DNA of 64,000 nt. Source: an uncultured SAR116 cluster alpha proteobacterium (GTDB lineage: Bacteria > Pseudomonadota > Alphaproteobacteria > Puniceispirillales > GCA-002684695). The stretch covers positions 24,822 through 88,821 of the forward strand of contig CACBIM010000008.1 of the NCBI GenBank assembly GCA_902539295.1, read 5' to 3'. This document shows positions 17,037-62,398 of this stretch, piece after piece. Numbering within the stretch: the first letter of the stretch is position 1; each line of letters opens with the position of its first letter. Under the pieces are notes generated by a model. The model had not been told where the DNA came from. It did not search any database and was given only the letters and a program-made list of their open reading frames with translations. The position numbers and the translations under genes are program-made.

Positions 17037-17939
17037 ATGGAATATACAAATTTTTTAAATAGCAAAATTTTTTTTCCAACTGACTGGCAAGATTATGAAT
17101 TAATTGACTTTGGGAATAATAAAAAACTTGAACGATTTGGAAATTATATATTCATTCGCCCTGATAACCAAGCTATTTGTAAACCATGCCTGAGTAGAAA
17201 ATTTTGGGGGAATGCTGATGGCGAATTTAGCTCTGAAATCAACAGTGACAAAGGAAATTGGAAATTTTATAGAAAGATTCCTGAATTTTGGGACATTAAA
17301 TATAATAAATTAAATATAAAATCGCTTCCTACTCCTTTTAGGCATTTAGGTTTTTTTCCAGAGCAATCGGTTCATTGGGAATGGTGTCGCAACCTTATTC
17401 AGTCCTCTCAAATTGATCAACCAAGAGTTTTGAATCTTTTTGGATATAGTGGCATAGCTTCATTAGATGCCGCAATTGCTGGTGCATCTGTTACTCATAT
17501 TGACGCATCCAAAAAAGCTATCAATCTAGCATTTGAAAACAGAAATAGAAATAATTTAGAAACTTTGCCAATAAGATATTTAGTTGAAGATGCAGTAAGC
17601 TTTGTAAAAAAAGAAATTAACAGAGAAAAAAAATATGATGGAATTATACTTGACCCTCCAAAATATGGGAGAGGACCAAATGGTGAAATATGGAAAATTG
17701 AAGAAAATCTTTTAGACTTGATGAATCTAATAAAAGAAATTTTATCAGATAATCCTCTTTTTATAGTAATAACCTCATATGCAATTAGATCATCTCATGT
17801 ATCTTTATATAACTTGCTGAAAAGTAGTTTGAATTTTGACTATGGTAAGTACAGTTCAGGTGAACTTGGAATAAGAGAAAGTGGGGAAAAAAGAAGGGTT
17901 TTATCCTGTGCAAACTTTGCCAGATGGGAAATTAAATAA
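17037..17939 (+). CDS. Class I SAM-dependent methyltransferase (RlmI/PUA-less rRNA MTase-like)
   Basis: VLNLFGYSGIASLDAAIAGASVTHIDASKKAI; GIILDPPKYGRGPNGEIW. Confidence 0.8.
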   Translation: MEYTNFLNSKIFFPTDWQDYELIDFGNNKKLERFGNYIFIRPDNQAICKPCLSRKFWGNADGEFSSEINSDKGNWKFYRKIPEFWDIKYNKLNIKSLPTPFRHLGFFPEQSVHWEWCRNLIQSSQIDQPRVLNLFGYSGIASLDAAIAGASVTHIDASKKAINLAFENRNRNNLETLPIRYLVEDAVSFVKKEINREKKYDGIILDPPKYGRGPNGEIWKIEENLLDLMNLIKEILSDNPLFIVITSYAIRSSHVSLYNLLKSSLNFDYGKYSSGELGIRESGEKRRVLSCANFARWEIK

Positions 17940-17942
17940 AAT

Positions 17943-18757
17943 TTATTTTTTTGTTTTTAAAATTTCATACAAAAAAATTCCTGTCGATACTGATAAATTA
18001 AGGCTATCTGAAGTACCCATCATAGGAAGCTTTATCAATTCTTGTGCACTACTCTCAATTTCTTTAGAAACTCCTGATTGTTAATTTCCATTACAAGTAT
18101 AGGTTTTTCACCCCAGTTGCATTCAGTATAGAGTTTATTTGCTTTAAGACTTGTTACTATTAGCTTATTTTTTATTTGATTACTCCAAATAAGAAAATCA
18201 TCTAAGCTTATACATAATATCTTTATAGAAAAAATTGCGCCCATGGACGCTCTTACACATTCTGGTGAAAATGGATCACAACAATTACCTATAAGAATAA
18301 CTGTCTTAATACCTGTAGCATTACATGTTCTAAAAATAGTACCTAGGTTTCCTGGATCTCTTACTCTATCAATAGCCAGCCAAGCTATTGAACCGTCATC
18401 TATTAGATGCTCTTTATTAAATTTTTTTTGTTCAAAGACACCCATTATAGTTTGAGGGTTATCTTTTTTTGAAATTTTTCCAATAATTTTGTTAGTTACA
18501 TTTAAAACTAAACCATTATTTTTCTTACATTCAAAAATTAAATCATTGAAATTTATAGTTTGATTTTTTTCATTACTGTAAATTAAATATTTAGGGTTCC
18601 ATTTATGCTCAATCGCCTCACGACAGGTTCTCTCACCTTCAGCAATGAATAATCCTGTTTGGTTTCTGTTTTTTCTTAAAAGTAAAGATTTTATGTATTT
18701 AATTTTTGGATTTGAAATACTAATAATTTTGTCTTTTTCAGAGATCACAAATACCAA
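17943..18757 (-). pseudogene. TrmH/SpoU-family RNA methyltransferase disrupted by a frameshift and a nonsense codon in motif 2
   Basis: ORF 18035..18757 has motif 1 (DRVRDPGNLGTIFRTCNATG) but ends early; the other frame down to 17943 encodes [44 protein letters not shown] (SpoU motifs 2/3). Confidence 0.85.
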
Positions 18758-24374: not shown

Positions 24375-25259
24375 GTGCATTTTGCAGATAAAATTACAGA
24401 AAAAACAAAAGAAACAGGCTGCCCACTCTGCTTAGGCCTAGACCCACACAAAAACTTAATACCAGATTTTTTTAAAAAAAAATCAAGTCAATTGCACTTG
24501 GCTGATATTGAAGATTTTTTGTTTGAAATAATTAATCTTGCAAAAGGAAAAGTAGCAGCATTGAAGCCTCAAGTTGCTTTCTTTGAGGAATGGGGACCAG
24601 AAGGACTATCTCTTTTAGCGAAAATTTCAAAGTTTGCAAAAGATTTGTATCTTCCAATTATCATGGACGCAAAGAGAGGTGACATAGGTTCTACTTCTGA
24701 AGCTTATGCAAATGCATGGTTGGGTGATAATTCTCATTTTTATGCAGACGCATTAACTGTTAATCCATGGATGGGACTAGAAACTATTGATCCTTTTATT
24801 AAAATAGCTAAAGAAAAGGGCAAAGGTGTTTTCATTTTAGTTAAAACATCTAACCCAGGATCAAAAGATATTCAGAGCCTTGAAGTAAATGGTGAGAGTG
24901 TATTTTTAAAAATATCAAAATTAATAAAAGAAAACTTACCACTTAATTTAGGCAAATCTGGTTATAGCAATATTGGTATAGTAGTTGGTGCAACTAAACC
25001 TAAAGAGGCAAAATTGATAAGGAACATTCTTCCTAATCATTTATTTTTAGTTCCAGGTTTCGGTGCACAAGGCGGAAGTGCTAAAGACGCTTTTTCAGGA
25101 CTAATTTTGAATGAAAATATTTACGAAGGAGGATTAATTAATTCTTCTAGAGCAGTTCTTTTTCCTGAAAAATCAAAAAAATACAATAATATTTATGAGT
25201 GGAGAGAAACTGTCATAATGGCATTAAGCAAAGTAAAAAAAGACCTTATGATTAATTAA
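24375..25259 (+). CDS. pyrF: Orotidine 5'-phosphate decarboxylase (type 2), GTG start
   Basis: CLGLDPHKNLIPDFF, IIMDAKRGDIGSTSEAYANAWLG. Confidence 0.93.
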   Translation: MHFADKITEKTKETGCPLCLGLDPHKNLIPDFFKKKSSQLHLADIEDFLFEIINLAKGKVAALKPQVAFFEEWGPEGLSLLAKISKFAKDLYLPIIMDAKRGDIGSTSEAYANAWLGDNSHFYADALTVNPWMGLETIDPFIKIAKEKGKGVFILVKTSNPGSKDIQSLEVNGESVFLKISKLIKENLPLNLGKSGYSNIGIVVGATKPKEAKLIRNILPNHLFLVPGFGAQGGSAKDAFSGLILNENIYEGGLINSSRAVLFPEKSKKYNNIYEWRETVIMALSKVKKDLMIN

Positions 25260-26073
25260 AGTTCACCGGTATCAATTTTAAGTCTGGAAAAAATATCTTT
25301 GTTCTACCTGTAACCCTGTATGCAAGCAAACCAACTATTTCATGAATTAAATTATCTAATCTTCCAATATTATTAAAACTGAATTTTAAGCTAAATTTTG
25401 GATTGAAGCTGGTAAAATCAGTTGGGTATGGAAAAATTATTGAGTTGCCTAAATCTCTAGATTGCATCAAAGCAATTGTTCTCGGCATATGCAAAGCAGA
25501 AGTCACAATTATCCATTCACCACCTTTTTCTCTAAGATGTTTAGCAATTTCAATACTTTCTTGATAAGTGTTATTAGAAATTTCCTTGATTATTAATCTT
25601 TGATTATTAATTTGAAATATTTTAAAAAACTGCATAGCTTGTTCAGCCTCACTTATTCCTGAATTAACCAACATCGAAGCATTTGAAACAAACAAAAGCT
25701 TTGCTTCCTTATGCTCATTCAATAGCCTAAGAGTTTCAACTACTCTTTCTGCTCTACCTCCTAAGCTAACTTGATTAAGATCTAACGCTTTTTTTGAGCC
25801 AACAAATGCACCACCTAATAATATAATTCCATCAGGATTAATAGGTTTTTGAATTTCAATAAAGTTTTCAAATTTCCAGATTAAATAATTAGGTATGTAA
25901 CTAAAACCACCAATAATTATTACAAATAAAGCGATAAAACCAAAAAAATATGACATCATCCTTAGAAAGTAAAGTCTGCTTTTAGATAATAAAATATAAA
26001 TTAAGATTGAAAAAAAAATTAAATTGTAGGCCTTTAAAAAAAAACCTAAAATTTTTGATAAAGTGAAAAACAT
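25252..26073 (-). CDS. YdcF/DUF218 family membrane protein (ElyC-like)
   Basis: GIILLGGAF, NTYQESIEIAKHLREKGGEWIIVTSALHMPRTIALMQ. Confidence 0.82.
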   Translation of the reverse strand: MFFTLSKILGFFLKAYNLIFFSILIYILLSKSRLYFLRMMSYFFGFIALFVIIIGGFSYIPNYLIWKFENFIEIQKPINPDGIILLGGAFVGSKKALDLNQVSLGGRAERVVETLRLLNEHKEAKLLFVSNASMLVNSGISEAEQAMQFFKIFQINNQRLIIKEISNNTYQESIEIAKHLREKGGEWIIVTSALHMPRTIALMQSRDLGNSIIFPYPTDFTSFNPKFSLKFSFNNIGRLDNLIHEIVGLLAYRVTGRTKIFFPDLKLIPVNFN

Positions 26074-42754: not shown

Positions 42755-44542
42755 ATGCATAAATTTAATTTTCCAATATTATCTATTATTAATTCAAAAT
42801 TAATAGTTTTTACTGATGGATTCGGAGACTTTGTTGAAAAGCTTCCAATGTATTTAAAATATCTAATTGTTTCATTTTTAGTAATTTGTTTTCTTTTGCC
42901 TGGCATAAAGTCTATACCTCCATTAGATAGAGATGAAGCAAGATTTTCACAAGCTAGTAAGCAAATGTTGGAGGATCAGAACTTTGTAGTTATTAAATTC
43001 CAAGATGAATTAAGAGCAAAAAAACCAATTGGAATATACTGGGTTCAATCGTTGAGTGCTTATATTTTTGGAAAGGAAAGAATAACTTCATTTCGTATAC
43101 CCAACGTTATTGCTTTCATAACTTTAACGTTAGTTTTTAGTGCTTTTGTTTATAATATTGCATACAGGTATTTTGATGTAGCTTTCTCATCAGCTGTTAA
43201 TTATTCATTACTTACAAGCATATTGCTATCAATAATTTTTGGTTTTGCTATAGAAATTAAACAAGCAAAAACAGACAGTATTCTTTTAATGCTATGCACT
43301 ATACAACAACTTATTTTCTGGAAAATATATAATTATGGCAAAGAAAGCTGGAATATTTACAAACATCATGATCATACATGGCTAGTAAGATTATTTTGGT
43401 TTATTTTAGCATTAGGTATTCTTATTAAGGGACCTATCTCTCCACTTCTTTTTTTTCTTACATTAACAAGTGTAGTCCTTCTTGATAGATTTGTAGAAAA
43501 GGAATGGAACCTTTCCTGGGTGCGTTTATTCTTATGGCATCAGGGACTTTTGATCATTTTTGTTATTACAATACCATGGGTTTATTTAGCATGGAAAGCA
43601 ACAGATGGCTCATTAATTTTAAATGCAATTAAAGGTGACTTTATTAATAAAATCAAGAGTGGGCAAGAAAATCATTGGGGGCCTTTTGGTACTTATATAT
43701 TGCTTTTATTTTTAACATTATGGCCAATTGTTTTGTTTGTTCCATATGCCGCAAGAGCCCTTTTTGATTGGAAACATCATCGTTTTATAAGATTTTTGAT
43801 ATCTTGGATATTACCATTTTGGTTTATTTTAGAATTAACACCAACAAAATTACCACACTATATATTACCGATTTACCCCGGAATACTATTACTAGTTTAT
43901 TTAGGAATGTCTTCACCACCTAGTGGAAGAGATATTTATAATAAACTAAGCATAGTTTTTAGAATTTTTGTTTTCATATTTAGTATAATTTTAGGTTTAG
44001 CTACTATATATTTCACATTCATTTTTTCTTCAAATATTTTTAATATTTTTTATGCTATTTTATTTTCAGTTCTAATTCTTGCCTCAATAACTGCCGGCAA
44101 TACTTATTTTTTTAACTTATCACGACAAAAGCTTGCTCCTTTGTATTTAATGGCCATTTTAGCTGGTTTATCAAACATCGTTTTTTTTTCAATGATTTTT
44201 CCAAATCTTGACAGAATTCATGTTACTTCAAAAATTGAGAGTTTTATTGAAAGTTTTGATATTAAACCTGACACTATTGTTGCTACAGGTTATCATGAAC
44301 CGTCTCTTGTGTTTGCTCTTGGAAGGGATACTTTATTACTTAGACCTGAAGAAACAGCAATTGTTTTAATTGAAGGAGATAATACAATTGCTATAGTTGA
44401 GGAAAAAGCGATGCAGGAGGTTAAAAAAATAATGGAAAGTTTTAATCGTGAGTTTTTGAATTTGAAAAGTTTCTCAGGTTATAATTTAGCTAAGGGAGAA
44501 AAAGTTAAAATAAATGTTATAAAGCCTATTTTAAATAAATAG
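42755..44542 (+). CDS. ArnT-like glycosyltransferase (GT39/GT83 family)
   Basis: PPLDRDEARFSQASKQMLEDQNFVVIKFQDELRAKKPIGIYWVQS; multi-TM. Confidence 0.9.
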   Translation: MHKFNFPILSIINSKLIVFTDGFGDFVEKLPMYLKYLIVSFLVICFLLPGIKSIPPLDRDEARFSQASKQMLEDQNFVVIKFQDELRAKKPIGIYWVQSLSAYIFGKERITSFRIPNVIAFITLTLVFSAFVYNIAYRYFDVAFSSAVNYSLLTSILLSIIFGFAIEIKQAKTDSILLMLCTIQQLIFWKIYNYGKESWNIYKHHDHTWLVRLFWFILALGILIKGPISPLLFFLTLTSVVLLDRFVEKEWNLSWVRLFLWHQGLLIIFVITIPWVYLAWKATDGSLILNAIKGDFINKIKSGQENHWGPFGTYILLLFLTLWPIVLFVPYAARALFDWKHHRFIRFLISWILPFWFILELTPTKLPHYILPIYPGILLLVYLGMSSPPSGRDIYNKLSIVFRIFVFIFSIILGLATIYFTFIFSSNIFNIFYAILFSVLILASITAGNTYFFNLSRQKLAPLYLMAILAGLSNIVFFSMIFPNLDRIHVTSKIESFIESFDIKPDTIVATGYHEPSLVFALGRDTLLLRPEETAIVLIEGDNTIAIVEEKAMQEVKKIMESFNREFLNLKSFSGYNLAKGEKVKINVIKPILNK

Positions 44543-51937: not shown

Positions 51938-52756
51938 CTATTGAAAAGCAATATATATCATTCTTGTCGCCATTATTAATAAAAAAATAGAGAAAATTCT
52001 TCTTAATAACAGCCCATCTAGTTTATGTGCTAAACTTACTCCTATTTGTGCACCGATAATAGTTAAAGGCACAAAAACCATAAACACTGGTAAATAAACC
52101 ATACCTATTGACCAATCAGGAAATTCAAATTCACTTGTATTAGCAAACATATAAATCATTGTACTAGGTACAGCTATAATTAGTCCAATAGCTGACGCAG
52201 TTCCTGTTGCTCTGTGTTGATCTACCGAAAATGCATTCATAAGTGGTATAGATAAGGTGCCCCCACCAATTCCTATCATTGCAGATAATGAACCAATAAT
52301 GAAACCAATAAAACTGTTCAAAGAAAAATTATTTGGCATAACATTACCAAAAATAATTTGGTTTTTTTTCATCATATTAAATGAAGAAATTATGGCAATC
52401 ACTCCAAAGATTAATCTTAAACCATTTCCAGAAATACTCTGCGCAAGAATTGCCCCAAAAAAAGCACCAATTAAAATAAATAAGTATAATTTTTTAATAA
52501 TCTGAAAGTCTACAACGCCTTTTTTATAATGGCCTAAAGTTGAAGAGATTGCAGTTGGTACTATTAATGCCAATGAAGTAGCAACACCTATATGCATTGT
52601 TATAGAGGGACTATAACCGACAAAGTCTAACGTAAATGCTATTGCTGGGACAAGTATTATTCCTCCACCAACACCAAATAAACCAGCAATTAAACCAGCT
52701 GAAGTAGCACTTAAAGAAATAGGTATTATTAAACTTAAAAGAGTACTAAAATCCAT
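51938..52756 (-). CDS. TauE/SafE-family sulfite exporter-like permease
   Basis: AGLIAGLFGVGGGIILVPAIAF; GSLSAMIGIGGGTLSIPLM. Confidence 0.93.
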   Translation of the reverse strand: MDFSTLLSLIIPISLSATSAGLIAGLFGVGGGIILVPAIAFTLDFVGYSPSITMHIGVATSLALIVPTAISSTLGHYKKGVVDFQIIKKLYLFILIGAFFGAILAQSISGNGLRLIFGVIAIISSFNMMKKNQIIFGNVMPNNFSLNSFIGFIIGSLSAMIGIGGGTLSIPLMNAFSVDQHRATGTASAIGLIIAVPSTMIYMFANTSEFEFPDWSIGMVYLPVFMVFVPLTIIGAQIGVSLAHKLDGLLLRRIFSIFLLIMATRMIYIAFQ

Positions 52757-52757
52757 G

Positions 52758-52795
52758 AAAAAAATAAACTGCCACCCATAAGAATGGCAGTTTAT
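52758..52795 (-). terminator. Hairpin plus U-tract between PuuD-like and TauE-like genes
   Basis: Perfect 11-bp stem ataaactgcca / tggcagtttat; A7 on + (U7 on -) ending 1 nt before the TauE ATG. Confidence 0.75.
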
Positions 52796-52813
52796 ATCAT
52801 TTAATCAACTATA

Positions 52814-53404
52814 TTATGCAAATAAATTTTGATGCACAGTCATAGATACTAACATTGGAATGGAAAGAACAGTGTTAGTTCTTGAAAAAAGCATAGCCAT
52901 TTTAGCAGAAGAAGCTTTTGTTTCCGCATCAGCCTCAACTAAGCCTAAAGCTCTTTGTTGGTTAGGCCAAATGACCAACCATACATTTAAAAACATTATT
53001 GTTCCAAGATACATACCTATACCAATAGCCCAATAGCCCTCTGATAATAAAATTGCTTCTAATAAATACCCCTGATCATGAGCCAATATAATACCAAAAA
53101 CAATTGTAGCCATTGCAGCCCATCTAAACCACCAAAGAGCTGCGGGAGCAATAACTTTACCTATAGCGGGTTTCTGTTCATCGGGTATATTCCCCATGTT
53201 GGGTATTTGAACAAAATTGAAATAATAAAGAAGACCAATCCACATAATGCCCGCAACTACATGACACCATCTAAGCAACCAACTCCAAAAAGCTGAAAAA
53301 CCCTGATATTCTCCAATATTACCAATTAATAAAACTAAAATTATAGCTAACACAATTCCAGTAGCTACAGCATATCTTAAATCTTTAAGTATATTTTCTA
53401 TCAT
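52814..53404 (-). CDS. Urate hydroxylase PuuD-like membrane domain protein (short, no cytochrome c domain)
   Basis: RWCHVVAGIMWIGLLYYFNFVQIPNM; ALWWFRWAAMATIVFG; NVWLVIWPNQQ. Confidence 0.8.
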   Translation of the reverse strand: MIENILKDLRYAVATGIVLAIILVLLIGNIGEYQGFSAFWSWLLRWCHVVAGIMWIGLLYYFNFVQIPNMGNIPDEQKPAIGKVIAPAALWWFRWAAMATIVFGIILAHDQGYLLEAILLSEGYWAIGIGMYLGTIMFLNVWLVIWPNQQRALGLVEADAETKASSAKMAMLFSRTNTVLSIPMLVSMTVHQNLFA

Positions 53405-53532
53405 TTTTTAACCTCGATTAAATTACAATTTATAAGTTAATCTTTCATTATTTATGTTTAATTTTATATGTATTATAATAGATTTTATTTATTTTACAAA
53501 AGTTAATAATTTATAATTGGTAGAAATTTTTT

Positions 53533-54069
53533 ATGCTAAACTTAATTTATAGAAATATTTTTCTTTTCATTTTAATTTTTTTATTTGGATGCTCTGCTAT
53601 GAAAATTGAAGATTTTGCAAATACAAATCCAGAATTTAAACTTATGGAGTTTTTTGAAGGCAATGTAAAAGCCTGGGGTATAGTAGAAGATAGATTTGGA
53701 AACATTAGAAGGCAATTTAAAGTTGATATGAAAGGAACTATAGAGAATGACATCCTTACACTAGAAGAAGATTTTGAATATGCAGATGGAGAAATAGACA
53801 AAAGAATTTGGAAATTTAGCAAACTAGATAAAAAATCTTACAAAGGGCTAGCCAACGATATTATAGGAGTGGCAATAGCTAAAGAACAGGGAAATGCATT
53901 TAATATGAAATATAAAATGGACCTTGATTTAGGGTTTGCAGAACTTCGTGTAAATTTTAATGACTGGATGTTTAGAATTGATGAAGAAACTATAATTAAC
54001 AAAGCCACAATAAACAAATTTGGGCTGAATATAGCAACAGTTACATTATTTTTTAGGAAGGATAACTAA
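53533..54069 (+). CDS. DUF3833 family lipoprotein
   Basis: Lipobox LFGCSA; EFFEGNVKAWGIVEDRFGNIRRQFKVDMKG. Confidence 0.85.
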   Translation: MLNLIYRNIFLFILIFLFGCSAMKIEDFANTNPEFKLMEFFEGNVKAWGIVEDRFGNIRRQFKVDMKGTIENDILTLEEDFEYADGEIDKRIWKFSKLDKKSYKGLANDIIGVAIAKEQGNAFNMKYKMDLDLGFAELRVNFNDWMFRIDEETIINKATINKFGLNIATVTLFFRKDN

Positions 54070-54074
54070 TCTAC

Positions 54075-56736: not shown

Positions 56737-57492
56737 ATGAGATTTTTTCTTACAATCGAGTATGATGGATCTGAATATATTGGCTGGCAAAGACAAAACT
56801 CTGGTTTATCTGTTCAAGAGGTTGTTGAAAATAGCATATATAAAATCATTCAAATAAATTTGAATATTTATGGATCTGGCAGAACAGACGCTGGCGTACA
56901 CGCTACTGGTCAAGTTGCTCATGTTGATATTATAACAAAAGAATTTGAAGAAATTAGATTGATGGACGCTATTAATGCTTATTTGTTAGACCATAAGATA
57001 AAAGTTACAGATGTAAGAAAAACTATAGATGATGCACATGCAAGATTTTCCGCACTAAGCAGAGAATATGAATATGTTATATTAAATCGTTCTGCACCAC
57101 CTGCAATTGAGGAAGGTAAAGTTTGGCATCAGAGAAGAATACTTAATATTAAAAAAATGCAGGAAGCAGCTAGTTATTTCGTAGGGACTCACGATTTTAC
57201 TTCATTTAGAGCTACACAGTGCCAAAGTAAGAGTCCAATTAAAACTCTCGATGAACTTGCAGTTGTACAAGAAGAAAATAAAATATTCATTCGTGCAAAA
57301 GCTAAATCTTTTCTTCACCACCAAGTAAGAAATATTGTTGGAACTTTGCAACTTGTTGGTTCTGAAAAATATAAACCAGAAGATATTAAATTAATTTTTG
57401 AAAAAAAGGATAGAACGTCAGCTGGTCCAACTGCTCCAGCATGTGGGCTTACATTAGTAAAGATTGAATTTCCTCAAGAAATTTATTTGTAA
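56737..57492 (+). CDS. truA: tRNA pseudouridine(38-40) synthase
   Basis: EYDGSEYIGWQRQNSGLSVQEVVE; GSGRTDAGVHATGQVAH. Confidence 0.98.
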   Translation: MRFFLTIEYDGSEYIGWQRQNSGLSVQEVVENSIYKIIQINLNIYGSGRTDAGVHATGQVAHVDIITKEFEEIRLMDAINAYLLDHKIKVTDVRKTIDDAHARFSALSREYEYVILNRSAPPAIEEGKVWHQRRILNIKKMQEAASYFVGTHDFTSFRATQCQSKSPIKTLDELAVVQEENKIFIRAKAKSFLHHQVRNIVGTLQLVGSEKYKPEDIKLIFEKKDRTSAGPTAPACGLTLVKIEFPQEIYL

Positions 57493-57494
57493 AT

Positions 57495-58076
57495 TTATCC
57501 CACAAAAAAACCATAAAATATCTGATCTAAAAATCCAACTATTAAGCCAATAATTATATTGCCAAAAACAATTCCAATTGCTGCTAAAGTTGAAACATCT
57601 AATAGTTGTTTGGCAATTTTAAATTGAGATATTAGTATTTGAATACTTATAACTGCACCTATTATTGCAACCAAAAGAGAGATACCTGGCAAAACCCACA
57701 ATAGAATAGTAACCACTAACACTAATGAGGATTGCAATGTAACCAACCAAAAAAATGCAATTGTAAAATTATAAAAATAATTAATTCTGTTTATAATTCT
57801 CAAGAGATAAAAAACAAAAAAAACAAATAAGGACAGTTCAATTACCATTAACGGGATTGTTGATAATATCATTCTTATTGGAAGTTCATGAGGTATAGCT
57901 ATTTGGAAAATAGCTAATTTTGCTAAAATAGAAATTATACAAGTAATAAATAGAACATGCCATAAACCAAGTGGTCCTATGTTTACTTGAGATTTAATTA
58001 AATCAAATGGTCTCCCTCGTAATAATGAAAATGCGAAACTCAAACCAGACGTAAGTTGGCTAATTGAAGGAATCAT
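57495..58076 (-). CDS. Multi-TM membrane protein (YIP1-like)
   Basis: Five or so hydrophobic segments; next to dapE; family assignment tentative. Confidence 0.55.
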   Translation of the reverse strand: MIPSISQLTSGLSFAFSLLRGRPFDLIKSQVNIGPLGLWHVLFITCIISILAKLAIFQIAIPHELPIRMILSTIPLMVIELSLFVFFVFYLLRIINRINYFYNFTIAFFWLVTLQSSLVLVVTILLWVLPGISLLVAIIGAVISIQILISQFKIAKQLLDVSTLAAIGIVFGNIIIGLIVGFLDQIFYGFFVG

Positions 58077-59227
58077 CTAGTAACCTCAATAAATGTTTTA
58101 TTTAAAAACTCATAATAAATTTCCGTTAATAGTTTTAGATCTTTTATTAGAGCATGCTCATTAACTTGATGCATTGTTTTGCCTACTAAACCAAATTCAA
58201 TAACTGGGCAATATAGAGAAATAAATCTTGCATCAGAAGTTCCACCAGTTGTTGACAAATCAATTGAAGAATTAGTTTTCAGCTTAATAGCCTCACTAAT
58301 ATAGTTTATGAGTTTACCTGGTTTTGTAATAAATGGATTAGCATTACAAGTAAATTCAACTTTATAGTCTTTATGCACACGATCAAAATGTGATCGTAAA
58401 AATTTTTCAAGTTTTTCAGGGTTTTGCTTTTCATTGAACCTAATATTAAATTTAACCTCAACTTTTGAAGGAATTACATTTACTGCATCATTACCAGTGT
58501 CTATGCTTGTAATAGAAGCATTAGTAGGGGGGAAACTTTTACTTCCTTTGTCTAATTCTCCTTTTAATAACGGCTCGATCATTTTTTGCATTATTGTAAA
58601 TGGGCTTAACGCTTGGTGCGGATAAGCAACATGACCTTGTTTTCCATATACAACTAACTTGCCATTTAAACTCCCTCTTCTTCCTATTTTAACTGTGTCA
58701 CCAATCTCTTCTTTATTTGTAGGTTCCCCAACAATACACATATCAGGTATTTGATTATTTTCATCCATCCATTTTAAAACTTTTGATGTACCATTTATTG
58801 CTGGGCCTTCTTCGTCACCAGTTAATAAAAAACTTATACTTCCTGTAAATTTTTTATTATCTTTAATCCAATTAATTACTGCACTTGCAAATGATGCAAT
58901 TGCACCTTTCATATCTACAGCACCCCTACCAAAAATTTTGTTTCCTTTGATATCACCCCCAAATGGTGAGTGCTCCCATAAGTTATAATCACCTGCAGGT
59001 ACAACATCTGTATGACCAGCAAAACATAAATGTGGGCGTTTGCTTCCTAACCTTAGGAATAAATTTTCAACTTTATCCTGACCAGTCCCAAAAGTTAATC
59101 TTTGAGATTTGAAATTATTCTTTTTTAAAATATTTTCAATTACTGCTAATGCACCATCATCATTTGGAGTAACTGATTTACATTTAATAAGTTTTACTAA
59201 TAGATCTACAGGATCAGAGTTCACCAA
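58073..59227 (-). CDS. dapE: Succinyl-diaminopimelate desuccinylase
   Basis: CFAGHTDVVPAGD; GRGAVDMKGAIASF; GDEEGPAINGT; STTGGTSDARF. Confidence 0.97.
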   Translation of the reverse strand: MVNSDPVDLLVKLIKCKSVTPNDDGALAVIENILKKNNFKSQRLTFGTGQDKVENLFLRLGSKRPHLCFAGHTDVVPAGDYNLWEHSPFGGDIKGNKIFGRGAVDMKGAIASFASAVINWIKDNKKFTGSISFLLTGDEEGPAINGTSKVLKWMDENNQIPDMCIVGEPTNKEEIGDTVKIGRRGSLNGKLVVYGKQGHVAYPHQALSPFTIMQKMIEPLLKGELDKGSKSFPPTNASITSIDTGNDAVNVIPSKVEVKFNIRFNEKQNPEKLEKFLRSHFDRVHKDYKVEFTCNANPFITKPGKLINYISEAIKLKTNSSIDLSTTGGTSDARFISLYCPVIEFGLVGKTMHQVNEHALIKDLKLLTEIYYEFLNKTFIEVTR

Positions 59228-60088
59228 TTAATCTCTCAATAAATCATTTATGGATGTTTTTTCCCTTGTTTGTGCATCTACTTTTTTCACAATTACAGCA
59301 CAATAAAGATTAGGGCCAGGAGATCCATCAGGTAAATTTTTACCAGGTAAACTTCCTGGAACAACTACAGAGTAAGCAGGTACTCTTCCAATGTGTATTT
59401 CTCCTGTGCTTCTATCAATAATTTTTGTAGAAGCACCTATGAAAACACCCATTGAAAGTACAGCCCCTTTTTCAACGATAACGCCTTCAACAACTTCTGA
59501 CCGAGCGCCTATAAAACAGTCGTCTTCTATTATAACAGGACCAGCTTGTAGAGGTTCCAATACACCCCCAATACCAACACCTCCAGAAAGATGTACGTTA
59601 GCCCCAATTTGTGCACAAGATCCAACAGTTGCCCAAGTATCAACCATTGTAGATTCTCCTACATTTGCTCCAATATTAACAAAGCAAGGCATTAAAACAA
59701 CTCCCTTTGCGATATATGCTGAATGTCTTACAACACATCCTGGTACAGATCTAAAGCCGGCTTTTCTATAGTCTTGCTCAGTGTAACCAGCAAATTTTGA
59801 AGGGATTTTATCCCACCAAAAAGATTTACCTAAACTTGGAGTTTCAGGTGCACCAGAGATCAATCCCATATCATTCAAACGAAATGATAAAAGGACAGCT
59901 TTTTTAAGCCATTGATTAACCTTCCATTGATGATCGCCAATCGGTTCTGCGACTCTGAATAAACCGCTATCTAAACCGTTTAGAGCTTCTTCAACTGATT
60001 TTCTAACTTCACCTTTAGTATCAGTACTAATTGTATCTCTATTTTCCCATGCATCATTAATTATATTTTCAAGTTTTGATACATCCAT
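59228..60088 (-). CDS. dapD: 2,3,4,5-tetrahydropyridine-2,6-dicarboxylate N-succinyltransferase
   Basis: [49 protein letters not shown] hexapeptide repeats. Confidence 0.98.
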
Positions 60089-60115
60089 TTTTTTCTCCAA
60101 TTTTAATATGTTTAC

Positions 60116-60769
60116 TTATGAAAGGAATTCTTCTAAATCAGTAATTGTATAATCAATATAGTCATTTTTCTCATTTTCTAAAAGATCATTTTTCGAACTA
60201 ATTAATACTGTTGTCATCTCAAGCATCTTGGCTGTTTTAAGGTTCCATTTTGTATCTTCAAACATTATTGCTCTTAATGGATCAATATTTTCTTGTAACA
60301 TCATTTTTTCATAAGCATGTTTTGAGGGTTTAGGAATATAACCAGATGTTTCTATGCTATGTATGCTGTGGAAATTTTTCTCAATACCTAGTTTTTGAAG
60401 AACACTTTCAGCATGCTTAAAAGAACCGTTTGTAAAGATATATTTTGTTCCATTGATTTTTTTTAAAGTCCTATTTAATTTCAAATTTTTGTTGATTATA
60501 GATAAATCTATATCGTGAACATATTCCAGAAATTTGTCTGGATTAATTTTATTTTCTGACATCAAACCACGAAGAGAAGTACCATACTCATTATACAATC
60601 TTTGTCGCTTTTTGTTTGCAGATACTTTATCGATTTGAAATTCAAGAGAAATAAATTCAATAATTCTTTTTTTTACCTGTGGAAAGATATTTTCATCTTC
60701 AGGATATAGGGTATTATCTAAATCAAAAATCCAATGCGAAAAATCTTCATGATTAAAATTTTTACTCAT
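60116..60769 (-). CDS. HAD-superfamily pyrimidine 5'-nucleotidase
   Basis: HWIFDLDNTLYPED; IFTNGSFKHAESVLQKLG; MFEDTKWNLKTAK. Confidence 0.92.
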   Translation of the reverse strand: MSKNFNHEDFSHWIFDLDNTLYPEDENIFPQVKKRIIEFISLEFQIDKVSANKKRQRLYNEYGTSLRGLMSENKINPDKFLEYVHDIDLSIINKNLKLNRTLKKINGTKYIFTNGSFKHAESVLQKLGIEKNFHSIHSIETSGYIPKPSKHAYEKMMLQENIDPLRAIMFEDTKWNLKTAKMLEMTTVLISSKNDLLENEKNDYIDYTITDLEEFLS

Positions 60770-60780
60770 AAAATGGTGCT

Positions 60781-61677
60781 TTACTTTCTAATAAGAGTTC
60801 CTCCACCATGCTCTGTAAATAGTTCCATTAAAGTAGCATGCGGGGCTCTTCCATCTAAAATCACTGCCGCATCAGTTCCATTTTCAACTGTTTCAATACA
60901 TGTCTCGACTTTTGGTATCATGCCAGAGGTAATTACTTTCTGATCAATTAATTTTTTTGCTTCTTCAGAACTTAGTTCTTTAATAAGTTTACCATTTTTA
61001 TCTAAAACACCTGGTACGTCAGTTAACATCAACATCCTTTTTGCATTGAGAGAGCTTGAAATTGCTCCTGCTACAGTGTCTGCATTTATATTATAGGTTT
61101 GACCATCATTACCTAATCCTAAAGGTGCAACCACTGGTATCAAACTACCTTCCATAAGAGCATTAAGAACTTTATTTTCAATATTAGTTGGCTTTCCAAC
61201 AAATCCAAGATCAACAACTTTTTCAATGGCTGAATTTGGATCTCTTCTTGATTTAATTTTTTCTGCTTTAATTAGCCCCCCATCTTTACCCGAGATGCCT
61301 ACTGCTTTAGCACCAGCAGAAGTTATAGCTGCAACTATAGATTTATTTATTGCACCTGATAATACCATCTCAACAACATTTACAGTGTCTTTATCTGTAA
61401 CTCTTAAACCATCAACAAAGTCTGTTTTAATATTAAGTTTTTCAAGCATTGTCTCAATCTGTGGCCCACCACCATGAACAACCACAGGTTTTGTGCCAAC
61501 TTGCTGTAACAAAGCTATGTCTTTGGCAAAAGAATTTTGCATTTCTTTATTTGTCATTGCATGTCCACCATATTTAATAACAATTGATGAACCATTATAC
61601 TGATGCATGTATGGTAAAAATTCGGATAAAAATTCTACCTTTTTTAACCATTGATTACTCTCATTTTGATATGACAT
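60781..61677 (-). CDS. argB: Acetylglutamate kinase
   Basis: IVIKYGGHAMTN; VVVHGGGPQIETML; NINADTVAGAIS. Confidence 0.98.
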   Translation of the reverse strand: MSYQNESNQWLKKVEFLSEFLPYMHQYNGSSIVIKYGGHAMTNKEMQNSFAKDIALLQQVGTKPVVVHGGGPQIETMLEKLNIKTDFVDGLRVTDKDTVNVVEMVLSGAINKSIVAAITSAGAKAVGISGKDGGLIKAEKIKSRRDPNSAIEKVVDLGFVGKPTNIENKVLNALMEGSLIPVVAPLGLGNDGQTYNINADTVAGAISSSLNAKRMLMLTDVPGVLDKNGKLIKELSSEEAKKLIDQKVITSGMIPKVETCIETVENGTDAAVILDGRAPHATLMELFTEHGGGTLIRK

Positions 61678-61702
61678 ATGTCTCTCTAAGGTTTAATTTA
61701 AT

Positions 61703-62398
61703 TTACAGTAATCTAGCTATATCTGCTCTGAGAAAATTTATACCAATTCCCTTTAATGATGAAGTTAAATGTATAAATGGGTGCGCAGCTGCATTTTTAT
61801 GACTTTCTTTAATTACCCCCTCAAAAGTTGATATAAGCTCACTTGATTTTAGTTTATCAATTTTTGTTAATACGATTTGATATGAAACCGCAAGTTTGTT
61901 AAAAATTTCCATCGCATCTCTATCTGGGTTAGTTATGCCTCTTCTTGAATCAATGAGTAAAAAAACTCTTACCAATGACGATCTATACTTTATATAAGAT
62001 TTTATTAAATTATTCCATTTTTGAATAGATGACTTAGATGCCTTAGCATATCCAAACCCTGGAAAATCAACTAGCCTTATCTGACAATTACCAACCTCAA
62101 AAAAATTTAATTGTTGTGTTCTTCCTGGATTTTGTGACGTACGAGCGGTGAATTTAGTTCCAGTAATAGAGTTTATAAGCGATGATTTGCCAACATTAGA
62201 CCTACCTGAAAAAGCAATTTCGCTTACGGTTTCTTCAGGTAAAGAATTCATAGAATTGGATCCTGCTATAAATTTTACTGATTGAGAAAATAATTTTTTG
62301 CCTTTTTCAACTATTTCGTCTGTAAAATCAAAATTGGGATTTTTTAAATAGTTGTCGTCTATTATTTTGCTTTGTTTGTCTGTCTCATTATTAGCCAT
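61703..62398 (-). CDS. engB: Ribosome biogenesis GTPase YihA/YsxC (EngB)
   Basis: EIAFSGRSNVGKSSLINSITG; RTQQLNFFEVGNCQIRLVDFPGFGYAKA; LTKIDKL. Confidence 0.97.
   Translation of the reverse strand: MANNETDKQSKIIDDNYLKNPNFDFTDEIVEKGKKLFSQSVKFIAGSNSMNSLPEETVSEIAFSGRSNVGKSSLINSITGTKFTARTSQNPGRTQQLNFFEVGNCQIRLVDFPGFGYAKASKSSIQKWNNLIKSYIKYRSSLVRVFLLIDSRRGITNPDRDAMEIFNKLAVSYQIVLTKIDKLKSSELISTFEGVIKESHKNAAAHPFIHLTSSLKGIGINFLRADIARLL

Follow-up and report, generated by a model that had tools for sequence, protein, structure and literature searches.

In MRM3-like enzymes of the TrmH/SpoU family of RNA 2'-O-methyltransferases, a substrate-binding domain (PF22435) precedes the SpoU methylase domain (PF00588), and SpoU motifs 2 and 3 form the trefoil knot at the C-terminus, which serves both S-adenosylmethionine binding and dimer formation. 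The nearest solved structures for the locus described here are 5KZK/5L0Z, followed by 1IPA. The locus shares the domain order of these enzymes, but the gene is cut inside motif 2 and motif 3 is out of frame. In this respect it resembles recent bacterial pseudogenes and private frameshift alleles in draft genomes, which likewise show a one-base indel in one genome, an intact sister and no decay elsewhere in the gene; the difference is a GAA to TAA change within 8 nt of the indel. The window, i.e., the whole stretch of 64,000 nt that was analyzed, comprises bases 24822-88821 of contig C8 in a 2.16-Mb draft genome (68 contigs, 88% complete, GC content 31-33%). A streamlined SAR116 subclade of low GC content (about 30%) is known mainly from single-cell genomes (PMC8547437). 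Judged by its GC content and its kinship, the window probably belongs to this subclade.

The first 223 codons of the methyltransferase gene are found in an open reading frame at 18035-18757 on the minus strand, which has a TTG start and encodes 240 amino acids. ORF calls and Pfam agreed with the original prediction that it carries the N-terminal part and motif 1 and ends in an odd tail. The MRM3-like substrate-binding domain was recognized with an E value of 3.8e-20 (PF22435), and motif 1 is covered by positions 4-101 of PF00588. The tail, EINNQEFLKKLRVVHKN, consists of 17 out-of-frame codons (18088-18038) and is terminated by a stop at 18035-18037. The last 45 codons lie in a different frame of the same strand (17943-18080, beginning QSGVSKE), and, as had been proposed, this frame holds the missing SpoU motifs 2/3, matching positions 106-142 of PF00588 with an E value of 9.9e-9. 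Within 18060-18110, the broken junction reads ATGGAAATTAAC. The lesion is in the middle of contig C8, at about base 42,900 of 88,821, and both neighboring genes are intact: upstream a formate-tetrahydrofolate ligase gene (FTHFS, PF01268; 18764-20434, minus strand), which is syntenic in the sister genome, and convergently a class I SAM-dependent methyltransferase gene (17037-17939, plus strand), which ends 3 nt from the ancestral stop of the broken gene. The end of the convergent gene, at 17924-17935 of the plus strand, forms an inverted near-repeat with the lesion (18081-18091, minus strand), and this copy has the T of the lesion.

Each of the two frames separately exceeded the 29.7-bit cut-off of Pfam SpoU_methylase, with 62.6 bits for positions 4-101 and 35.9 bits for positions 106-142. 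A complete knot, with motifs 1, 2 and 3 in one frame, is present in the sister and in the relatives and is missing from the window, where the break lies inside motif 2. The sister protein matched the TrmH-family methyltransferase structure 5KZK over its whole length (residues 9-266, E value 8.6e-57), with the GNEQ region and motif 3 covered by the match. It also matched the RlmB model TIGR00186 (E value 1e-35) and the TsnR/NshR model NF000477 (E value 3.9e-18), but its scores of 123.4 and 66 bits were below the respective equivalog cut-offs of 160.15 and 425 bits, and therefore the RNA target was left unassigned. The window ORF reached 55.8 bits in the RlmB test and was thus also below the cut-off. 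Judged from these matches, the locus is an ordinary chromosomal gene for a predicted TrmH/SpoU-family RNA 2'-O-ribose methyltransferase (MRM3-like, TsnR/RlmB-related). A close second copy was not found in the genome of the window, and the remaining SpoU paralogues are distant.

The sister genome, SAR116 AG-891-F06 (G004), has about 96% identity to the window and is syntenic across almost all of it, with aligned blocks of 94-97% identity. In the corresponding syntenic position, it contains an intact gene of 271 codons with an unbroken frame, and its junction, ATGGGAAATGAACAATCAGG, is exactly the ancestral junction that had been inferred from the window alone. Compared with the sister, one G is missing from the window at 18088-18089 (GG instead of GGG), and the GAA codon for the Glu of the GNE motif is replaced by TAA at 18081-18083, which verified both predicted changes. 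In three further genomes the junction reads ATG GGG AAT GAA/GAG CAA, with GAA in G003 and G002 and GAG in G001. Each of the five genus genomes has the gene, which is intact in the four other than that of the window; among 41 related genomes, 37 contain it, and among the 27 good ones, 25. Further strains beyond AG-891-F06 were found neither in the genome contigs nor in the viral contigs that were searched, and the genus comprises five genomes. The GNEQxG motif and a full-length frame were present in 28 of the 28 relatives that were read, so that the broken state is derived and private to the window genome among the genomes compared. The disrupting lesion was thus absent from the orthologues of the four other genus genomes and of the 28 relatives. 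It had also been considered that homologues might naturally end at the 18035 stop; none of these 28 relatives ends early.

The constraint on both parts of the gene was quantified by comparison with the sister. Before the lesion pN was 0.0132 and pS 0.0965, and after the lesion the values were 0.0090 and 0.0670, excluding stop and gap codons. A background of 0.0133 and 0.1035 was obtained from the pooled window genes with more than 94% identity, and pN/pS was 0.13 on both sides of the lesion, equal to this background. The remnant 3' frame differs from the sister by one nonsynonymous and two synonymous changes. The suggested conservation check on the C-terminal frame therefore revealed full constraint, and the relaxation that follows inactivation in a pseudogene was not seen, so that any inactivation must have been very recent or never happened in the cell. 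With 4-7 nonsynonymous changes on the window branch, a rough Poisson estimate, made on the assumption of equal branches, gave a 95% upper bound of 0.17-0.31 for the unconstrained share of the branch since the split. An old, decayed pseudogene is ruled out by pN/pS.

Frameshifts were counted throughout the genome. Inspection showed that most of the disruptions flagged in the first screen were due to over-extended start codons or to last codons, and these were removed. In 516 orthologous comparisons (176,297 codons), three genes were disrupted in the window genome and none in the sister (Fisher P 0.12); the sister had no frameshift in 523 comparisons, its single flag being a tandem paralogue. 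Within the window, the methyltransferase lesion was the sole interior frameshift among the orthologues compared. The original prediction had stated that the surroundings show no decay, and indeed the other orthologues of the window are intact; however, contig C1 has two more private frameshifts. One is a 1-nt loss in an A7 run of an HtpG/Hsp90 gene (G000:C1:49939), which is intact in the sister, and the other is a 1-nt gain in a T7 run of a branched-chain-type ABC permease gene (G000:C1:44106), 5.8 kb away. For a single-cell workflow (SCGC), 3.0 indels and 5.0 mismatches per 100 kb had been reported with benchmark cultures (PMC6122165, PMC11247762). The three coding indels in about 529 kb of the window genome, which may not be a single-cell genome, correspond to 0.57 per 100 kb, and because this is below the benchmark rate, error alone could supply all three. 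An error-rich assembly was rejected, as only three frameshifts occurred in 516 orthologues.

The short distance between the two changes had been regarded as striking, but this argument turned out to be weak. Between the window and the sister, 43% of the aligned positions lie no more than 8 nt from a substitution, and thus a substitution beside an indel is by itself unremarkable. What is remarkable is a nonsense change in a gene that still works. Therefore, the best reading of GAA to TAA is that it arose neutrally after the frame was dead, or that it belongs to one complex mutation or to one local error; its position beside the deletion speaks slightly against an indel error that is simple and isolated.

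Of the three explanations that had been offered, i.e., a young pseudogene, a cluster of errors and, less likely, recoding, the former two remain, and they were weighted about evenly. It is an even bet that the lesion is a private, very recent loss-of-function allele in one cell or lineage. The deletion in the GGG run would then have shifted the frame inside SpoU motif 2 and yielded a product without motifs 2 and 3, and the TAA would have followed as a neutral second hit once the frame was dead, or both changes would belong to one complex mutation. Following what is established about the SpoU knot, a protein truncated in this way, without motifs 2/3, is expected to have no activity, and the RNA methylation would be lost with it. 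The lesion is known from the consensus of a single draft assembly, and its presence in the cell, like the order of events, is something we infer. The intact gene at the syntenic position of the sister and in three other genus genomes is consistent with a recent loss, a nonsense change beside the frameshift fits a frame that was already dead, and a deletion in a GGG run seems less typical of read or assembly errors than the A7 and T7 changes elsewhere. On the other hand, the published error rates are more than enough for the coding indels that were counted. An error of the draft consensus during amplification, read generation or assembly, with an intact and functional gene in the cell, was accordingly given somewhat under an even chance. 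This is favored by the unrelaxed constraint everywhere in the gene, by the two other private single-base frameshifts in A/T homopolymers and by the published indel rate of 3 per 100 kb for single-cell genomes (PMC6122165). However, both the deletion and the nonsense change, 5-6 nt apart, would have to be errors, for which independent mismatches at 5 per 100 kb give about 1e-3 unless the errors are correlated. Furthermore, a GGG run in mid-contig is neither a long homopolymer nor a contig end, and with a coding indel rate far under the benchmark the assembly looks cleaner than average. The intact sister sequence does not decide between a recent loss and an error: the proposed rule that it would indicate an assembly error was too strong, as a real private mutation would leave the sister intact just as well.

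Recoding, in which the ribosomes would shift by -1 after the junction and produce a full-length enzyme, is extremely improbable. In its favor, the frame downstream of the junction has been conserved, and VMEINQSGVSKE, the result of a -1 shift at AAC, would have the ancestral length. However, a very recent lesion would leave the frame just as conserved, and the product would read MEINQSG instead of MGNEQSG, so that EIN would replace the GNE kept by 28 of 28 relatives. The hallmarks of programmed -1 frameshifting, a slippery heptamer and an arrangement conserved in relatives, were both missing: there is no X XXY YYZ heptamer in GAAATTAACAAT, and all relatives have a single straight-through frame. 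A further, very unlikely idea is that a template switch, whether in the cell or in the amplification step, copied the G to T change from an inverted near-repeat about 150 nt away, ATGGGAAATTAA at 17924-17935 (plus strand). This would be a mechanism only, compatible with a real allele as well as with a draft error. The ancestral junction ATGGGAAATGAA matches the copy, inverted, at 11 of 12 positions, and the 12-mer occurs once in 1.24 Mb of the genome, which is suggestive; but the deleted G would be left unexplained, as the copy has GGG, and the present match of 9 nt is within chance, since such a match is reached within 300 nt by 5.6% of all window substitutions (12 nt: 0.5%).

Taken together, the intact sister, the unrelaxed constraint and the genome-wide lesion count point to a lesion that is either very recent or an artefact. 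There is a slim chance that it is real and spreading in the SAR116 population, so that an ocean bacterium under streamlining is losing an RNA 2'-O-methylation that is otherwise widely kept, or, with much lower probability, that the broken gene is still read by frameshifting. Nothing indicates a new mechanism, and the case is ordinary. Its significance is small; it illustrates well how to weigh a one-base lesion seen in just one draft genome, and if the lesion is real, this RNA methyltransferase can be lost in a low-GC SAR116 lineage.

The comparison with the sister also revealed how unevenly the divergence is distributed along the window. Within syntenic DNA of 94-99% identity, the identity drops sharply at 1071-1622, 25252-26073 and 52700-54070, with the lowest values of about 73-81% around 52700-54070, as expected from recombination with other lineages. 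The genes at 56737-62398 are 98-99% identical to those of the sister and have pS values of 0.03-0.05, versus a pooled value of 0.10, which suggests that this stretch may have been exchanged recently.
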